Assembly (NCBI GenBank): GCA_003209165.1
Contig: QCSL01000004.1
Location: 1-64,000 of the forward strand
DNA: 64,000 nucleotides
Origin: Synechococcus sp. AG-670-B23
Lineage (GTDB): Bacteria > Cyanobacteriota > Cyanobacteriia > PCC-6307 > Cyanobiaceae
Reading direction: 5' to 3'
Part shown: positions 1-38,986 of the stretch, one piece after another
Position numbering within the stretch: position 1 is the first letter of the stretch
Layout of the letters: each line of letters begins with the position of its first letter
Translations under genes and position numbers: made by a program
The notes under the pieces: generated by a model
The model's input: only the letters and a program-made list of their open reading frames with translations
The model's database searches: none
Told to the model about the DNA's origin: nothing

Positions 1-2205
1 ATATTGCTTTAATTCTTGGTACTTTTCTTGCCATTCGTGTTCACGAGGATCCCATATGAATCCAATAGCATTAAGAAGTTTAATACGTTCGACTGATAGT
101 TTGCCGTTTTTATTTTCCTGCCTTTGCCTGATGCTCCATTTTCCAAGTGTTGGATGACTTCGTGGCACTAAAGCATTGCCATTTTCATCGACATATTGCT
201 TGAGTTGACCATATGTTTCCAACCAATTCTCTGTGGTTTCTCTGACTAGTATTAATGTGAGTGAATCTGAGAATGTTGTTGGAATCCATGAAGGAAGATC
301 AAAGATGATCTTGGTCAATCTTTTTCCTGGTTTTGTCGAATGATTCCTTTTACCAATTTCTACTCTTAACTGGTCCAGTGTTTCACGGAGTAAATCATCT
401 TGTGATTTAAGTGCAAGGATAATATTCCAGACGTCCTGGAAACGACTTTTGAGAATGCTGTCCTCAATATTTGTGGTATCCCCTAGGTAGACAGGAAGGA
501 CTATGTATCCATATTTTTTGTTTTCACTCGTTCTAATTGCTCGACCCAGTGCCTGAATGATGTCTACCTGACTTCTCTTGGGATCCATGAAGGCAATGCC
601 ATCAAGGGTTGGAACATCCACCCCTTCAGATAGGCATCGTGAATTGGTGAGTATTCCGACTTCATTATCATTGATATGCCTTAACTCGTTGATGGCAAGA
701 TTTCGACTCTTGGTGGACATCTCTCCTGAGACATGAGAGCAGACTAATCTTTTGTTCGTCTTTGATCCCTCTGGCATCCAGTCTTGGATCAACGGATGAT
801 CTTCAGAGAATTTCTTTGCTGACTTGACTCGACTATGGAATGAGATGAGTCGACTCAAGTCATACTTTTTTATTGCTTTCGCAAGTGCAACGTGATTTGC
901 AAGTGTTTCGGTGTCGATCTCTAATTCATCTCCTGTCTGGACAATTGATCTATTGATGATCTTTGCTTCAACAGATGGATCATCAACTCCAACGATGACC
1001 ACCTGATAGTCACTTAATAGATCGTCTGCGATTGCCTCTGAGAAATTGAATTGATGGAACACCTCCCCAAATAGGTAAACGTCATCCATGCAAGCAAGGG
1101 TGATATTTTCATCATCTGCTCTCTTCTTGATCTGCTTTGACAGCACTCTTGGTGTTGCTGTCATGAAGAGTCGTTTGTGCGATCTAATTTTTTCTTCATC
1201 TAGGACGCAAGCAAAAGCACTGGAGATCTTGCCTGTGCATCGATGTGCCTCATCTGCAAAGGTGATGTCAAACATTGGTGTTGATGGACTTTTCTGGGAA
1301 TCTGCAACTAACTCTGAAGACTGATAAGTCGAGAAGACCACTCCACCTGCTTCATTTTCAAGAAAGTCTTGTATGTCTTTTGGATCACTGGTGACTGAAA
1401 CCCCAAGATCACTGACGTTTTCGATCATGTTGTCAGTGTTCTTGTCCTGCTTTGCAACTGACTTATCTGAACAGACACAAATCCAGTTGAATTTATTCTG
1501 ACCATGATCAATCCAATTTCTTAGGGTCTGAGATAGCAAACCAAGTGATGGCACAAGAACCAGTGTCCTTTTTGCGTTTAGTGCTTCTTTGATCCACAGG
1601 GAGGTCAAGGTCTTGCCTGTTCCACATGCCATCAGGAGTTGCCCCTTGTCCTCTTTCTGGAAACCCTCTACGACGTTTTTGATTGCTTCCTTCTGATGTG
1701 GTTTTGGTGTGTATCTTTCCTTTCTCCGACCTGTTGAGAGATCCTCCGGAGATGAAGGGAAATCTACCCATGATTTCCTGAAGTCCTTAAGCATAAAAGG
1801 AACAACCTGCTTCTCTTGTCGTTTGAGTACCTGTTCTGCATTTGTAGTTATGCCGTCAGTTGATGCGATTAACACTCGTCCATAAATTCTAGAATCATTT
1901 GATTCACTCAAAAAACTGTCAATTTCTTTTTTAGGGATATTATTATCAGGAGAAACGCACTTGCATTGAACTGCCCAATGCCTTCTTTCTTGATCTTCGT
2001 AGACGAGATCAATCCCACAATCTCTACCCCACCCTTGTGGATAGTCTTCCCATAACCAAACCTGACGGACCTTGCTTGCCCAGACAGGGTCTTTCTTCAG
2101 GAACCAAGGAACGAAGACCTTCTCGAAATACTCCCCTCTCTTCCTGCTGCTCTCTTGATCACTTCCCTGTGGAAGGGATTTATAGAACTCGTCGAAGGAT
2201 GCCAC
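1..2205 (-). CDS. DEAD/DEAH helicase with N-terminal restriction-endonuclease-like (Mrr-like) domain and C-terminal helicase-associated (HA) repeats; runs off left edge
   Basis: Manual minus-strand translation, GTG start near 2205: DLVYEDQERRHWAVQCKC (nuclease-like), LLMACGTGKTLTSLW (Walker A), ITFADEAHRCTG (DEAH), LFMTATPR, QALGRAIR (motif VI), then WLETYGQLKQYVDENGNALVPRSHPTLGKWSIRQRQ (HA repeat). Confidence 0.85.
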   Translation of the reverse strand, partial: MASFDEFYKSLPQGSDQESSRKRGEYFEKVFVPWFLKKDPVWASKVRQVWLWEDYPQGWGRDCGIDLVYEDQERRHWAVQCKCVSPDNNIPKKEIDSFLSESNDSRIYGRVLIASTDGITTNAEQVLKRQEKQVVPFMLKDFRKSWVDFPSSPEDLSTGRRKERYTPKPHQKEAIKNVVEGFQKEDKGQLLMACGTGKTLTSLWIKEALNAKRTLVLVPSLGLLSQTLRNWIDHGQNKFNWICVCSDKSVAKQDKNTDNMIENVSDLGVSVTSDPKDIQDFLENEAGGVVFSTYQSSELVADSQKSPSTPMFDITFADEAHRCTGKISSAFACVLDEEKIRSHKRLFMTATPRVLSKQIKKRADDENITLACMDDVYLFGEVFHQFNFSEAIADDLLSDYQVVIVGVDDPSVEAKIINRSIVQTGDELEIDTETLANHVALAKAIKKYDLSRLISFHSRVKSAKKFSEDHPLIQDWMPEGSKTNKRLVCSHVSGEMSTKSRNLAINELRHINDNEVGILTNSRCLSEGVDVPTLDGIAFMDPKRSQVDIIQALGRAIRTSENKKYGYIVLPVYLGDTTNIEDSILKSRFQDVWNIILALKSQDDLLRETLDQLRVEIGKRNHSTKPGKRLTKIIFDLPSWIPTTFSDSLTLILVRETTENWLETYGQLKQYVDENGNALVPRSHPTLGKWSIRQRQENKNGKLSVERIKLLNAIGFIWDPREHEWQEKYQELKQY

Positions 2206-6331: not shown

Positions 6332-6445
6332 ATTTTCAGGACATTCTGGTGTTTTCTGAGACCAACCAGGACCAACAAGCATTAAAAAAGTCCCTCACCG
6401 CAACGGGTTTGGGACGATCGAAGGCCTATCAGGACTTGCTCAAAA

Positions 6446-11577: not shown

Positions 11578-11928
11578 TCAGCTCTCCAAAGCCAAGCAAC
11601 GGTGCAGGTGCGCGATGGCGTGATGGCGATGCGGATTGTTGCCGCTGGGACCAATCATTCCCAACCAGAAACTGCCATCCCCTTGAAAGACCAGGACGGG
11701 CTTTGCACCTCCCTTCCCATGGCAATCCAACAGGGACATGCAGAGCTTTTCAGCCACCTCCGGCCCCTTGGGACGCTGGCGCAAGCGACGCAGCAGGGGA
11801 TCCACTTGCGAGAAGGAAACGAAACAGGCGCGGTCGGAGTCGGTAATCAGGATCAGACCATCCAGCCACTGCACTTCCTGAAGCAGCTCTTCGATGCGGG
11901 GGAGCAGCTTCGGCAGCGGAAACGCCAA
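11578..11928 (-). CDS. Conserved cyanobacterial hypothetical protein
   Basis: 116 aa ORF between genes. Confidence 0.55.
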   Translation of the reverse strand: MAFPLPKLLPRIEELLQEVQWLDGLILITDSDRACFVSFSQVDPLLRRLRQRPKGPEVAEKLCMSLLDCHGKGGAKPVLVFQGDGSFWLGMIGPSGNNPHRHHAIAHLHRCLALES

Positions 11929-12008
11929 ACCGGAACCTCTATCTTAACGTTCTCTTTAGGCTTCATACGACATTGTCGGGGTTCGTCGCAAGGGACACAG
12001 GCAAAGAT

Positions 12009-12710
12009 TCATGTCCTGAGGATCAAAACCCCCATCTGACCTGCCACGAGTGAGCGGTGGGTCGCTTCCGGAAATCCCGCCTGCCGAGCCAGCTGCTCTT
12101 GTTCAGGTCCCGCAGGAAAACGCTCCAAACTCTTCTCCAGGTAGGCGTACTCCTCCCGCAACCCCACGGAGGCGGCGGCAGGCACCACCAGGCGACGCAA
12201 ATAGAAGCGCTGAAAGGCAGCCGCCGCACCGCTTTGCGGAAGACGGTTGAAATCAAGCACCCCCGCACGACCGCCGCGCTTCAGCAGCCGCCGAAGTTCC
12301 TTCAGCCCCTGCAAGGGGTCCGCCAAATTGCGCAATCCATACGCCATCACCGCACCATCAGCGCAAGCACCGGCAAGGCCTGTGTTCAAAGCATCCCCCT
12401 GCTGAAAGGTCACCGGCAGCCAGGGCAGCTGCCGCTGGCGCTGGCGGGCCCTCTCCAAGGGAGCAGCGGCGGCATCCAGACCAATCACTGCACCAGAGGG
12501 TCGAACACAGCGCCCCAGCTCTAAGGCCAGGTCGCCTGTCCCGCAGCACAGGTCCAGCCACTGCTCACCAGCCACCGGCTTGAGGGCGCGCACCAGCTGA
12601 CGTTTCCATTGGCGATGCAGCCCGAGACTGAGCAAATCGTTGAGGCGGTCGTAGCGGGGAGCCACAGCATCAAACAGCTGTTCCACTGCCGCGGGATCAC
12701 CAGGTTTCAT
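12009..12710 (-). CDS. menG: UbiE/MenG-family quinone methyltransferase
   Basis: [32 protein letters not shown]...[16 protein letters not shown]. Confidence 0.93.
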
Positions 12711-33030: not shown

Positions 33031-33639
33031 ATGTCTCGTTACCGCGGCCCTCGTCTGAGGATCACGCGGCGCTTGGGAGACCTCCCTGGTCTCACCCGGA
33101 AGGCCGCCAAACGGTCCTATCCCCCCGGTCAGCACGGCCAAGCCCGTCGCAAGCGCTCTGAATACGCGATCCGTCTCGAAGAGAAGCAGAAGCTTCGCTT
33201 CAACTACGGCGTCTCCGAGCGTCAGCTCGTGCGCTACGTGAAGAAAGCGCGCGCCCAGGAAGGTTCCACCGGAACCAACCTGCTCAAGCTGCTCGAGAAC
33301 CGTCTCGACAATGTTTGTTTCCGCCTCGGCTTCGGTCCCACCGTGCCCGGCGCCCGTCAGCTGGTGAACCACGGTCACGTCACTGTGAACGGTCGTGTGA
33401 CCGACATCGCCAGCTACCAGTGCAAGCCCGGCGACGTGATCGCCATCCGAGAGCGCAAGTGCAGCAAGAAGCTGGCTGAAGCCAACCTCGAGTTTCCTGG
33501 TCTGGCGAACGTGCCGAGCCACCTCGAGCTGGACAAGGCCAAACTGAGCGCCAAAGTCACAGCCCGCTGCGAACGCGAGTGGGTTGCCTTGGAGATCAAC
33601 GAACTGTTGGTGGTGGAGTACTACTCCAGAAAAGTCTGA
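33031..33639 (+). CDS. rpsD: 30S ribosomal protein S4
   Basis: [60 protein letters not shown]... Confidence 0.98.
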
Positions 33640-33641
33640 TT
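33620..33641. repeat. Left core attachment repeat (last six rpsD codons, stop and TT)
   Basis: Identical to 38069..38090. Confidence 0.95.
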
Positions 33642-33742
33642 TTGGGCTACTGCAAGGGTTTCGAGGCTTTTTCGACCCCTTGCTCAAACTTTACTCAAAC
33701 TCTTGCTACCGTTTTCGCAACGACCAGCAGGAGTTTTTTTTC

Positions 33743-34051
33743 ATGCCTGCCATTGCTCAAAAAGCAAGGGCACTGGGAGGCAAAGGGGTTGTCTTGTCGT
33801 ACGTGGACAAGCCCGAAAACTTCTACTGGCGTGAACAGGTCCCCGGCACAAAGCGGTACCTCAACCGACTGCTGCCCAACTCTTCAACTCTTGAGGAAGC
33901 AGTCGAGGAATGCATCGAGGCTTATACGGCCCTGAGAAAAGAGCAAGCCGTTCCTCATGGATCTGACGGACCCAGTCAGCAACGCGCCTCAGAGAGCCAA
34001 GGGAGAACCACTAGGAACTCCATACCGGCAGGTTCAAGAACAGGCCAGTAG
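33743..34051 (+). CDS. Probable N-terminal part of the element's integrase, in a different frame from the catalytic ORF
   Basis: MPAIAQKARALGGKGVVLSYVDKPENFYWREQVPGTKRYLNRLLPNSSTLEEAVEECIEAYTALRKE. Confidence 0.55.
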   Translation: MPAIAQKARALGGKGVVLSYVDKPENFYWREQVPGTKRYLNRLLPNSSTLEEAVEECIEAYTALRKEQAVPHGSDGPSQQRASESQGRTTRNSIPAGSRTGQ

Positions 34052-34125
34052 AGGCTTGTGTTGCCGAATTACTTGAGGCCGAGCAGCGAAAGGTTGAAGC
34101 GGAGCCACTCAAACCACGAAGCCTG

Positions 34126-35127
34126 TTGAACAAACGCCAGGCACTGCTCAAACAGATGCTCCCGTACCTCGAGGAAAGGGGAGTTACGCACACGCGTCAG
34201 ATCGACCTGAATACCTTCGAGGACTACCCGACATGGAGGAAGGCAGCCAAATCCACACGGAAGCTTGAACTGACATACATCGGGAACTTCCTCAACGAGT
34301 TCTGCAAACGACGGGGGCTACTGGACATTGAGGTATCGCCCCGCGAAGCCCTTCCAAGCATTGCGATCAAAGACACAGAGGTCGATGCCAACCCACCCTT
34401 GATCGAACAAGGCAACTGGCAGAAGGTGGCCGTTGCATTGAGCCGCAACCGCGACAGTGCCGCGAAGCTTCGGAACCACCGTGGCTCGTACTTTGCGCAG
34501 CTTTTTTATCGGTGGTGCATCGTCGGCAGAAACTCTGGGCTTCGACCAGACATTGAGCTGAACAAGCTTCGGTGGTGTGACGTGCGAAGAAAGAACGTCG
34601 GTAGATGGTCCAAGTATGAGGAGAAGAAGAAGGACAAGTGGATTGCAGTACTACACGTTCGCGACTCAAAGACAGGAAAACAGCGCATCGTCCCGACCAA
34701 TGACGTGGATAATCAGCTCACACAGTGGAAGGAAGAGCAACAGCAATACATCCAAAGGTATTGCCCTGGAATCGAGGTCACCGATGAAACACTGATCTTT
34801 GGAAACCCACACAACGAGATGAGGCAGTACGCCTACAACAACTTCAACAGAACATGGAGAAAAATCATTGATGGGATTAACACATCTCTAAAACCATACG
34901 TATTCAGTAACAAGAATTACACTCCCTACAGCCTTCGCAGCACTTACATCTGCAATTTAATCATGGACAACAAAGACATCTACACGGTAGCCAAGCTCGC
35001 TGGACACACGATTGCTGTTTGCGAGAAGTATTACGCCAGAATTGATATGGGCAAAAAGGCGAAAGAGATAACTGACTTTGATTACGGATCTACACGATCA
35101 AGAAACATCGAAACAGAAAGCTATTGA
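34126..35127 (+). CDS. int: Tyrosine recombinase/integrase
   Basis: GLRPDIELNKLRWCDV, PYSLRSTYICNLI, LAGHTIAVCEKYYARIDMGKKAKEI. Confidence 0.9.
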   Translation: MNKRQALLKQMLPYLEERGVTHTRQIDLNTFEDYPTWRKAAKSTRKLELTYIGNFLNEFCKRRGLLDIEVSPREALPSIAIKDTEVDANPPLIEQGNWQKVAVALSRNRDSAAKLRNHRGSYFAQLFYRWCIVGRNSGLRPDIELNKLRWCDVRRKNVGRWSKYEEKKKDKWIAVLHVRDSKTGKQRIVPTNDVDNQLTQWKEEQQQYIQRYCPGIEVTDETLIFGNPHNEMRQYAYNNFNRTWRKIIDGINTSLKPYVFSNKNYTPYSLRSTYICNLIMDNKDIYTVAKLAGHTIAVCEKYYARIDMGKKAKEITDFDYGSTRSRNIETESY

Positions 35128-35263
35128 CTTAACAAACAATGACATCCAAACAAGAACAACATGAAATAGACACGACCGTCGAAGCACTAAGGAAGAGGCA
35201 TCACCAGGTCAGGAAAGCCATTGCTTGAATGAATCATTTTGGTGAGAGTGGCTTGTCTTCCAT

Positions 35264-35527
35264 TTACTTGAATCCTTTGGTTGATAGTTCAGCTTTCTTT
35301 TTGACAGATTTACTAATAGAAGCTGGGACTGATTCCTCCTTGAATATCTTGCCCTCTACCCAGACAGTTAATGCATAGACAAGAATCAATGCTGGCACAA
35401 GGACAAGCCATTCATTGTCAAATTCATAAGGGATTTGTCTTACGCCAAATACAGTTAAATACCCAGTAACAAGAGTAATAATGAGCCGCCTTATGGTTCC
35501 AGAATTCAATTGACTTATGCCAGGCAA
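35264..35527 (-). CDS. Small membrane hypothetical protein (element cargo)
   Basis: 87 aa ORF with two hydrophobic segments. Confidence 0.45.
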   Translation of the reverse strand: MPGISQLNSGTIRRLIITLVTGYLTVFGVRQIPYEFDNEWLVLVPALILVYALTVWVEGKIFKEESVPASISKSVKKKAELSTKGFK

Positions 35528-35547
35528 CTGAGTCTATGCGGACAGAG

Positions 35548-35790
35548 CTAAGCCGCCACTAGCTCAAGTTCTTCTGCCAAGTCTTCGTATCGGCACTCAT
35601 CGAGCTGCTCTCCCATACCCTTGATCATGCTCATCACATCACCAGGGTCTTCAGCGGTGCCGTCCTGAGCCTTTGGGGGTAAAGGAGCAATGGCTATGGC
35701 AGAAGCCAGAAGTCCTAACGAAAGACGGTGGAGCGTCTGACATGCGTGATTACGCGAAGGATGCCGCAGTTTGTATTGGTCGTCGCGCAT
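35548..35790 (-). CDS. Small hypothetical protein, possibly exported
   Basis: LSLGLLASAIAIAPLPPKAQ signal-like segment; acidic C-term. Confidence 0.4.
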   Translation of the reverse strand: MRDDQYKLRHPSRNHACQTLHRLSLGLLASAIAIAPLPPKAQDGTAEDPGDVMSMIKGMGEQLDECRYEDLAEELELVAA

Positions 35791-35994
35791 TGCTGTTACC
35801 CAGCTTCAAGCGGTAACCGGACTCGAGATCGTGTCCCAGCAACAGATCGAAGACACGTGTCAAAGCTGGATTACTCACCCATACAACTCAGCAGTCCCAA
35901 CTTTGGGGGCGGGTTTGCGATCCTGGAATGGCGGTTCTCCTGACTCAAATTTGCATAAGTAGGTTTAGAACTAGGTCATGAGGCAAATGTACAA

Positions 35995-36093
35995 ATGCTC
36001 GACCAATTCACTCTCACGGCAACCACTTCCATAGCCATTATTGGCCTAATGGCACTGCTGTATGGCGGTGTGCGGTTCCTACAAACCCATTAA
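35995..36093 (+). CDS. Very small membrane peptide (32 aa)
   Basis: MLDQFTLTATTSIAIIGLMALLYGGVRFLQTH. Confidence 0.35.
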   Translation: MLDQFTLTATTSIAIIGLMALLYGGVRFLQTH

Positions 36094-36098
36094 TCACA

Positions 36099-36278
36099 AT
36101 GAATAAGGTTTTACGCCCGCTTCGCCGGGCAGCTGTCTACGGATCTTTCAGCTACCTGGGCTTGGTCGTGATCAACAACAGCGGCCTCGACCTACCCAGC
36201 CTTTGGATTGCTTACCTACCAATGTTTGTCGGGGTTTACGTCCTTACGATATGGATCGATCAGAAATTCAGCTCATAA
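36099..36278 (+). CDS. Small membrane protein (59 aa)
   Basis: MNKVLRPLRRAAVYGSFSYLGLVVINNSGLDLPSLWIAYLPMFVGVYVLTIWIDQKFSS, 5 bp after the previous ORF. Confidence 0.45.
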   Translation: MNKVLRPLRRAAVYGSFSYLGLVVINNSGLDLPSLWIAYLPMFVGVYVLTIWIDQKFSS

Positions 36279-36337
36279 CGACCTCCGTTGATCGGGAGAA
36301 ATTAGAAAAGTTGATTGCTGTCTGCTATTTTTTATCT

Positions 36338-36988
36338 TTAAAAAGAGATTGTGAGGTCATCAATAATTGGGCAATATCTATCAGCAACTACACGTGCTGT
36401 TGGGTCATAGTAAACATCCATCCACCCTTTTCTAGCCATGCCTCTTGCAATGTCACCTTTGCGATTAAATGTCCTATCTAAACAGTCAAGTTCGTATTCG
36501 AACCAGCGAGCTTGCGTACCCCCACTAGTTCCAGGCGTATAGCTAGGCGCGACATAACCAGAGCGATTACAGTTTGTCGATACTTGATATCCAAAACGCG
36601 TCGTCGTGCAATCTACGGATCCTGGGCTGCCAGGGTTTTAGTAGCCAGGTGTTCCTTGATATTCATTCGTACTTCTACCCCAGAACGACAAGTATCTTCC
36701 ATACTTGCCTCTAACTTTCATTTTCCCGACGCTGCTTCGTCGATATGTATATCCATAGCTGACTTCAACATCGTCGGGCCCGAAGCTTTCTGCAGGAGAC
36801 AGATTTGACCTCAGATTAATTCCCGGTGTCTCCCACATTGTCTTTGTCTGCGTGTTTGTCTTGTGTGATTTTGCACAACCTTCATAGTCTGCTGCTTTCA
36901 AGCATTTCGCATGAATGTCATCTTCAACTGCCTGCGCCACAGGAAATTCCAGGCTGAAGAGGGCATAAAATAAGAGCAGGCGTTTCAT
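36338..36988 (-). pseudogene. Exported protein gene interrupted by one in-frame TAA
   Basis: MKRLLLFYALFSLEFPVAQA...STNEYQGTPGY, stop at 36638..36640, then same-frame NPGSPGSVDCTTTRFGYQVSTNCNRSGYVAPSY...DDLTISF, stop at 36338. Confidence 0.65.
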
Positions 36989-37191
36989 TGGTATTTAATT
37001 GCTTTAATCATTTGGGTTCAACTATATGAAAAGCTCGAGACATCCAAGCCCCGAGCCAGATTTCACTACAGTTATGTCGCTGTAGCAGTGATGCGATGTC
37101 ATTGATCCATCGCTCGTGAAATCCCGACAGAAATTTCTGAACCCTTTATACGTATAGACACGGCCGCAAACCTCCCCCATACCCCGTCGCT

Positions 37192-37440
37192 CTAGGGCTC
37201 AGCAGAAGCTCCCCAGCAGGGCTCCACTTGTTGCCAGCCAACACGATGCAATTCCTTCCAGAGCTGCTCTGCAGCGTCTCTACGCAGGTGTAAACGGGTC
37301 TTGAGGAGTGGTGGCTCGCCAGGTATTGGCACACCAGTGTCGACAAAGACCTTCGGGTCCCTGACCCAGCTCTTCTCGTCCCGGTGGAACCGCTTGGTTT
37401 CTTTGGTCGCCGGATCTTGGATGAAGCCCTCTGACCCCAT
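37192..37440 (-). CDS. DUF1651-type small protein
   Basis: RFHRDEKSWVRDPKVFVDTGVPIPGEPPLLKTRLHLRRDAAEQLWKELHRVGWQQVEPCW. Confidence 0.75.
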   Translation of the reverse strand: MGSEGFIQDPATKETKRFHRDEKSWVRDPKVFVDTGVPIPGEPPLLKTRLHLRRDAAEQLWKELHRVGWQQVEPCWGASAEP

Positions 37441-37576
37441 AACTCAATACCAGTACATGTGTACCATCATAAGACCGCTAGACGGGTCTGCTCAAACTTT
37501 CAGTAGCACCTGCTCAAACCACGCCTGAAAGCAACTGGTGCAACTGACTCTCAGGACTATGGAAACAAGTCCAACC

Positions 37577-37605
37577 AAAAAGAAACCCCCGCCTTAGGCA
37601 GGGGC
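37577..37605 (-). terminator. Intrinsic terminator after the DUF4278-like ORF
   Basis: Minus strand CCCCTGCCTAAGGCGGGGG followed by TTTCTTTTT. Confidence 0.8.
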
Positions 37606-37627
37606 TTGAGATCTGATTCAGCCCTGA

Positions 37628-37795
37628 TCACTTGGCGTAGGAAACACCGCGGTAGGTCAGGCTTGGAGGAGCGTTGTGAGCGGCTTCTTCGCGGCAGGTG
37701 TTGTAGTGCTCGCGGCGGTAGGTCAGCTCGACACAAGCTTTGGGCGAGGCTGCTTGAGCTTCGTAGGAGTGACCTCTATAGAGAAGAGCAGTCAT
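37628..37795 (-). CDS. DUF4278-type small protein (55 aa, absent from supplied ORF track)
   Basis: MTALLYRGHSYEAQAASPKACVELTYRREHYNTCREEAAHNAPPSLTYRGVSYAK; two YRG..Y motifs; terminator just downstream. Confidence 0.75.
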   Translation of the reverse strand: MTALLYRGHSYEAQAASPKACVELTYRREHYNTCREEAAHNAPPSLTYRGVSYAK

Positions 37796-38068
37796 GGTTA
37801 GTTCCTCAGAAATCCAGGTCCCCGTTCCTTGGCCTAGTGATCTGCGCCCCTGAGTTGAGGGGTGAACTTCATGTAGCGGTTGCTACAGAAAAATTATACG
37901 CCCGACCTTATCCCCTGACAACGGATAACAACCTCGCTTGTGCTGCCGCGCAGGTTTGACGCGATCTGTCCTTGTTGAGCCAAGTGCCAGATAGGAAGAG
38001 GCATTTACTCAAACTCAACTCAAACTCGTAATACAGGGTCAAAAAGCAGTGCAGCACTCAAAGCCTGG

Positions 38069-38090
38069 ACTACTCCAGAAAAGTCTGATT
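38069..38090. repeat. Right core attachment repeat
   Basis: Identical to 33620..33641. Confidence 0.95.
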
Positions 38091-38135
38091 CCAGACAGAT
38101 CCCTGGTTGCAGTCCTTGGCCTGCTTCACCGTTAT

Positions 38136-38166
38136 CCCTCGCCTGCTAGGCGGGGGATTTTTTGAC
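38136..38166 (+). terminator. Intrinsic terminator, probably the original rpsD terminator
   Basis: CCCTCGCC-TGCTA-GGCGGGGG then ATTTTTT, ~45 bp beyond the right att repeat. Confidence 0.75.
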
Positions 38167-38986
38167 TTAAAGGCCGATATGCCTGAGTTCAAAGGAGATT
38201 GTACGGAGGAAAACAAGAGATCTGTCAATCGAAAAATACGCCATCAACACCGAAAAATTCCAATCAAAGACTCAACAACACTCAATGCTTTGAAAAAGAT
38301 CACAATGTATGGATAGGTCATTGCTGCCAATACTTGATCCAACGCCAAATCCACCAACTGCAGCAAGCCCGTACTAAGGGCATATATAGCCATCCAGACA
38401 GAACAGGCTCTGCGCATGCTCGTCGCTCTGAATCGCGGCCTTATGCCGACCGACGTTAATCAGGAACTTAAACAATAAAAAACATCGAAAACAAAGTGAG
38501 GCGCAAGACCCCTTTGTTCGATTCAAATTCGATGTACTCGATGGCGACGTAGGCCACAACCGCCATTGCGAGAAGAACCCGAAGCAAGACAAAAGTAGCC
38601 CTTAGAATCTTCTTCACTCTGAGATCTGGGATCCGACTCCAGCGTCATCTAATGAAGGTATAATGAACATAAATATCACCGACAAAGACGAGACAGCAAA
38701 ACAGCACCTATTTTTTCCATATCGGGAGGTGACCAACCTCACAACAAATGGAGGGACTTAATCCGGTGCAACTTGGCTCATAAAGAAATTACATAGAGAT
38801 TCTCGATACTTCGCATGCCATAAAGCTTGAGGCCGTCCACACCCATTGCCCATAGTTAGTAACAGGAGCCTGCGATTGTCACAACAAGGGATCGCAACTC
38901 ACACTTCTAAACAAATCATCTGAAAAAGGTTGGATTCAGGCAAGGGGTTTTAGTCGCACCGTTTAACAACACAGTCTTCTCCGCCT

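Follow-up and report, generated by a model that had tools for sequence, protein, structure and literature searches.

In marine picocyanobacteria, mobile elements are as a rule associated with tRNA genes. The tycheposons of Prochlorococcus, which carry a tyrosine recombinase and variable cargo, have been described at seven tRNA genes (PMC10872708), and another picocyanobacterial element, in which a tyrosine recombinase anchors a variable island, targets tRNA-Phe or tRNA-Cys, often with a small serine recombinase nearby (PMC10187409). T7-like cyanophages integrate transiently at tRNA-Leu (PMC8776855); of the integrase-bearing phages P-SSP7 and S-TIP37, which have that target and a full virion gene set, P-SSP7 carries int directly upstream of its T7-type RNA polymerase (RNAP) gene. 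Outside the cyanobacteria, the streptococcal elements PICI1/PICI2 (SagCI) integrate in rpsD (PMC7487436), and the satellites PLE and P4 encode the capsid-scaffold proteins TcaP and Sid (PMC10945586).

The locus described here lies in a window of 64,000 nucleotides, the whole stretch of DNA that was analysed. It has the hosts, the tyrosine recombinase and the variable cargo of the picocyanobacterial elements, but it occupies the 3' end of a protein gene, the essential ribosomal-protein gene rpsD, rather than a tRNA gene; the likeness to the tRNA-Phe/tRNA-Cys element is one of hosts and of a recombinase that anchors a variable island. With PICI1/PICI2 it has in common the possession of an integrase, a satellite-like size of its family and rpsD as integration gene. 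These belong to another phylum, and the available part of their description mentions no T7-type RNAP. The rpsD 3' end, which the preliminary description of this DNA had called an unusual niche, is indeed unusual, yet it has this streptococcal precedent. No account of rpsD-targeted or ssRNAP-carrying picocyanobacterial integrative elements, nor of satellites of marine picocyanobacterial T7-like phages, was found in the literature searched, outside of which most subscription journals lie.

Insertion at the 3' end of rpsD

The sequence ACTACTCCAGAAAAGTCTGATT is present at 33620-33641 and again at 38069-38090, forming a perfect 22-bp direct repeat that brackets 33620..38090 (4449 bp from repeat start to repeat start). 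The preliminary description of this repeat was confirmed: further copies with up to three mismatches were found neither elsewhere in the window nor in 100 shuffles. The features of the target gene and of the element ends are as follows.

33034..33639, plus strand: rpsD (30S ribosomal protein S4), the target gene, frame intact, with a normal YYSRKV-stop end
33620..33641, plus strand: attL, comprising the final rpsD codons, the stop and TT (repeat and empty-site comparison)
33683..33700, plus strand: left arm-type pair CTCAAACTTTACTCAAAC, spaced by 11 bp, putative sites for the integrase, which G029 and G014 have at the corresponding position
33697..33741, plus strand: element-borne terminator, a hairpin and T-run by folding, directly after the left arm pair and followed by the int start
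37491..37519, plus strand: inner CTCAAAC pair, 22 bp apart (equal spacing in G029 and G014)
38008..38025, plus strand: right arm-type pair CTCAAACTCAACTCAAAC (comparison of conserved pairs)
38069..38090, plus strand: attR (repeat and empty-site comparison)
38134..38158, plus strand: displaced original rpsD terminator, GC-rich, found directly after rpsD in G003 and G025

The repeat is derived from the target gene and an integrase adjoins one of the att sites, as in site-specific tyrosine-recombinase elements; the integrase is frameshifted in the window and intact in relative G014. No tRNA gene was found at the element boundaries, the sole tRNA gene of the window being tRNA-Ser at 6445. An rpsD orthologue was present in 51 of 59 related genomes. 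In G003 (closed, one contig) and G025 (draft), rpsD directly joins the stretch that in the window comes after attR, terminator included. The preliminary description had proposed site-specific integration with the S4 frame kept and had made it dependent on such an empty junction in relatives; the proposal is borne out by these junctions, the repeat and the normal end of rpsD at 33639. In G003, 913 bp separate rpsD from the DUF4079 gene; between attR and the same gene there are 897 bp in the window and 913 bp in G029.

Other genomes are occupied at this site. At the same rpsD junction G029 carries a 13.7-kb insert, and at the same rpsD site G014 carries a 22.5-kb insert bounded by a 23-bp repeat, GTACTACTCCCGCAAGGTCTAAG; the sequence downstream of rpsD in G004 resembles the right flank of the latter. 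Integrase-less inserts of 3.36 kb with the same end structure were found in two species (G007 and G032), and in G007 the standard rpsD terminator known from other species' genomes comes after attR. The window integrase is 86-90% identical to those of G029 and G014, and all three directly follow rpsD. A second genus (g79) has integrases 53-55% identical to that of G014 directly after rpsD in G252 and G211, and decayed copies hold the same position in five more of its genomes. Separately, an inverted rpsD-like core was seen near an integrase of 51% identity in G172 (g52).

One point that speaks against site-specific integration is that the identity between the two repeats of the window spans the stop codon, where attL and attR of G029 differ; strand exchange at a point upstream of the stop would account for this. 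Beyond attR, an AT-rich stretch of 0.9 kb (38091-38986) extends to the DUF4079 gene; it is common to G003 and G029, is absent from G001-like species and may be an older insertion.

CTCAAAC pairs spaced by 11 bp were located at both ends of all three elements (window, G029 and G014), with one change in the second copy at the right end of G014; the chance expectation of such a pair in the window is 0.01. They look like arm-type sites that an integrase would bind. The region 33640-33745 has a fold energy of -31.4 kcal/mol (z -4.0), and the order arm pair, terminator, int is common to G029, G014, G252 and G211. Since the insertion moved the host terminator 4.4 kb away, the element appears to supply its own terminator in place of the displaced one. 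The motif CTCAAACTTTACTCAAAC was also seen in many related genomes (L214-L223, L229-L233) close to a repeated gene start whose product begins MTEINYWLMKS..., which suggests that other elements share it; the gene product is presumably EVE-domain-like.

A decayed, internally deleted copy

The interior of the element contains the following features.

33743..34051, plus strand: integrase N-terminal fragment, ended by a frameshift at 34020/34021
34054..35127, plus strand: integrase core and catalytic part, R..K..R..H..Y kept, in another frame than the N-terminal part
35139..35228, plus strand: remnant of a T7-type RNA polymerase gene, first ~25 codons (alignment to relatives' elements)
35211..35221, no strand assigned: junction left by an internal deletion of ~10.0 kb by comparison with G029, with a short shared AAAGC (alignment)
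35264..35527, minus strand: small ORF, membrane-like, with a conserved counterpart in the element of G029
36638..36988, minus strand: gene for a secreted protein, cut short by a premature stop; the element of G014 has the full-length homologue (243 aa)
37192..37440, minus strand: DUF1651 gene, common to G029
37628..37795, minus strand: DUF4278 gene (domain match)

The preliminary description had placed a tyrosine recombinase just inside the left repeat copy. The domain is there (PF00589, 1.8e-6), but its gene is split over two frames, as one base that G014 and G029 possess is missing at 34020/34021; this could be a sequencing error, the assembly being the single one of its species among those compared. 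The small cargo ORFs noted earlier do fill the rest of the element. The compact or minimal design of ~4.45 kb that had been read from its size has to be given up. Counted from the rpsD stop, window positions 2-1582 align to positions 2-1582 of the G029 element and positions 1572-2686 to 11587-12693, so that ~10.0 kb is missing in the window; conversely, ~790 bp that hold the secreted-protein gene are absent from G029. Judged from these alignments, the window copy is what remains of an element of 13.7-22.5 kb, a relic with ~10 kb deleted from its interior and a frameshift. Decay is seen in the G029 element as well: codon 42 of its integrase gene is a stop, a catalytic R of the integrase is replaced by C, and the polymerase gene is frameshifted.

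Very probably, the window contains an integrative element, now decayed and with an internal deletion, that entered by site-specific recombination at the rpsD 3' end; the repeats, the empty site, the parallel insertions, the deletion and the frameshift can all be read directly from the genomes compared. The element's own tyrosine integrase would have recombined the attP of the element with the rpsD 3' end. The incoming element would provide the last rpsD codons and stop, followed by the paired arm sites and, immediately ahead of int, a terminator in place of the old one, and through these S4 and its transcription unit would survive insertion. The ancestor would have been a 14-22 kb member of the int and T7-type RNA polymerase family that is intact in G014. 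After insertion, ~10 kb holding the polymerase, nucleases, a conserved ~290-aa protein and other genes would have been lost, and the int frameshift would have arisen. Because of this loss and the frameshift, movement of the window copy probably requires a related integrase supplied in trans. The specificity of the integrase, the roles of arm sites and terminator and the immobility of the copy are inferred.

The parent family and its possible relation to cyanophages

In G014 the gene after int encodes an intact 809-aa T7-type RNA polymerase (Pfam RNA_pol 1.9e-51), whose PDB matches are the mitochondrial and T7 enzymes. Matches to it were obtained in 37 of 400 related genomes, the more distant ones being phage-like; carriers include Prochlorococcus AG-404-B19, AG-363-O16 and AG-402-L23 and Synechococcus UW140, AG-679-A04 and AG-670-F04. 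Frequent neighbours of the polymerase gene are int, the ~290-aa protein gene and small ORFs. The fold model of the ~290-aa protein (pLDDT 71) has as best PDB match a ParB DNA-binding domain, with a weak E of 0.35. Exonuclease matches are scattered over many phages. The intact integrase and polymerase in the closed genome of G014 make the family directly testable. Beside the element of G133, no attachment repeat was found at the end of ychF (no shared 14-mer). As a separate observation, a conserved hairpin, ACCRTT..AGGACAAG..GGT, lies ~40-60 bp before the ~290-aa gene in nine elements, including those of G014 (L081) and G029 (L061); by eye it shows apparent compensatory changes, and it is a candidate origin, promoter or regulatory structure.

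An isolated C-terminal T7-type capsid scaffold domain (phrog_1052 positions ~173-245; E 1.8e-7 to 1.1e-16) was detected in the elements of G014, G022 and G206 and in L146, the single element-like viral contig, recognised from the RNAP alignment; it is doubled in two of the four. The phage proteins closest to it are, for the most part, scaffolds from T7-like phages of Synechococcus and Pelagibacter. Among the 400 genomes the isolated domain occupies few chromosomal places, several of them near an ssRNAP or integrase gene; four are near ssRNAP (G014, G022, G206 and G019), and G026 also holds the pair of scaffold domain and ssRNAP. Isolated T7-type scaffold C-terminal domains also occur, some near integrases, in the absence of the element RNAP in G003, G293, G314, G329, G095 and G070 (L266-L272), where they possibly mark other satellites.

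These domains bear on the nature of the parent elements, which are tentatively regarded as satellites of T7-like cyanophages, a reading with a substantial chance of being right though not yet a probable one. Such satellites would integrate at gene ends, use their own RNAP during infection and hinder or borrow the helper capsid by means of the scaffold domain; the polymerase might serve either their own transcription during infection or replication priming. This reading is compatible with the explanation given above for the window and goes a further step from it. In its favour are the pairing of int and RNAP in elements whose scanned proteins include no recognised terminase, portal, coat or tail family among the 25 most common of 28 Pfam families for the set, and the rarity of the scaffold domain together with its closeness to marine T7-like phage scaffolds and its places near ssRNAP. 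No relaxase or mating apparatus, as would mark an integrative conjugative element, was recognised among the same 25 families either, and G029 and G014 combine an integrase, a size of ~10-20 kb and the lack of a virion structural gene set in the manner of PICI-like elements, the window copy being a 4.4-kb relic. Satellites are known to make use of capsid-scaffold proteins (TcaP, Sid; PMC10945586), and the proposed analogy to PLE and P4 is a putative scaffold protein encoded by the element, although the domain here is a T7-type scaffold C-terminus. Against it, no scaffold domain is detectable in the window copy, in G029 or in Prochlorococcus-type elements, and that of G014 sits in a fusion with a secreted-looking protein. 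Searches of viral contigs with the exact sequences of two left-end patterns and with the window integrase gave no match, and no family of repeated polymerase promoters inside the elements stood clearly above shuffles. As the branch of G029 and the Prochlorococcus elements has no scaffold domain, the satellite reading is a hypothesis for the family, and the evidence for it comes from relatives rather than from the window copy.

Descent from an ordinary T7-like cyanophage prophage that lost its structural genes and retained int and RNAP would account for the gene order, which is that of P-SSP7, but it is very unlikely. In the tree the polymerases of the elements group in a clade of their own (100/100 support), to which those of Syn5, P-SSP7, T7 and SP6 do not belong, they are ~27% identical to cyanophage RNAPs, and they recur in many species with conserved non-phage partner genes; no capsid remnant was seen beyond the scaffold domain, and T7-like cyanophages target tRNA-Leu, not rpsD (PMC8776855). 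Plain prophage decay was rejected on the RNAP clade, the partner genes and the lack of terminase, portal, coat and tail families among the element proteins scanned. That the locus is a tycheposon-type island, as its tyrosine recombinase, variable cargo and hosts might suggest, is held to be quite unlikely, given the seven tRNA genes at which tycheposons are described (PMC10872708) and the tRNA-free boundaries here. Practically no credence is given to the idea that the repeat arose by chance or segmental duplication of the rpsD end and has nothing to do with integration. Nothing speaks for it beyond the repeat itself, and it was rejected because the empty sites, parallel insertions and conserved ends contradict it.

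A relic of a site-specific element remains the preferred reading of the window. Taken together, and a shade more tentatively than for the parents as such, it may be a relic of undescribed picocyanobacterial satellites of T7-like cyanophages, which would use protein-gene 3' ends (rpsD, in at least two genera), carry a T7-type RNAP of a separate clade and, in one branch, mimic the scaffold C-terminus. The intact relatives with a virus-type RNAP in sister species suggest that the most abundant photosynthetic organisms of the ocean harbour a family of virus hitchhikers not described before; if true, it would offer a testable vehicle of gene movement in these hosts and a possible cyanophage parasite.

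Two observations concern another contig of the window's own assembly (G000:C12). A T7-like cyanophage (L275, L276, L277; ~2566-48128) appears to be integrated there in the 5' half of tRNA-Leu(CAG): it lies between two copies of that half (~2566 and ~48081), the att repeats, is flanked on either side by host genes (murA-like and argD-like), and four relatives have an uninterrupted, phage-free tRNA-Leu. For T7-like cyanophages only transient integration is reported (PMC8776855). Beside the phage, at 1862-2313 on the minus strand (L275), a second copy of the right end of the window element was found, which includes the arm pair, is nearly identical up to the core ACTACTCCAGAAAAG and then diverges abruptly; it is possibly a secondary insertion or a solo end.
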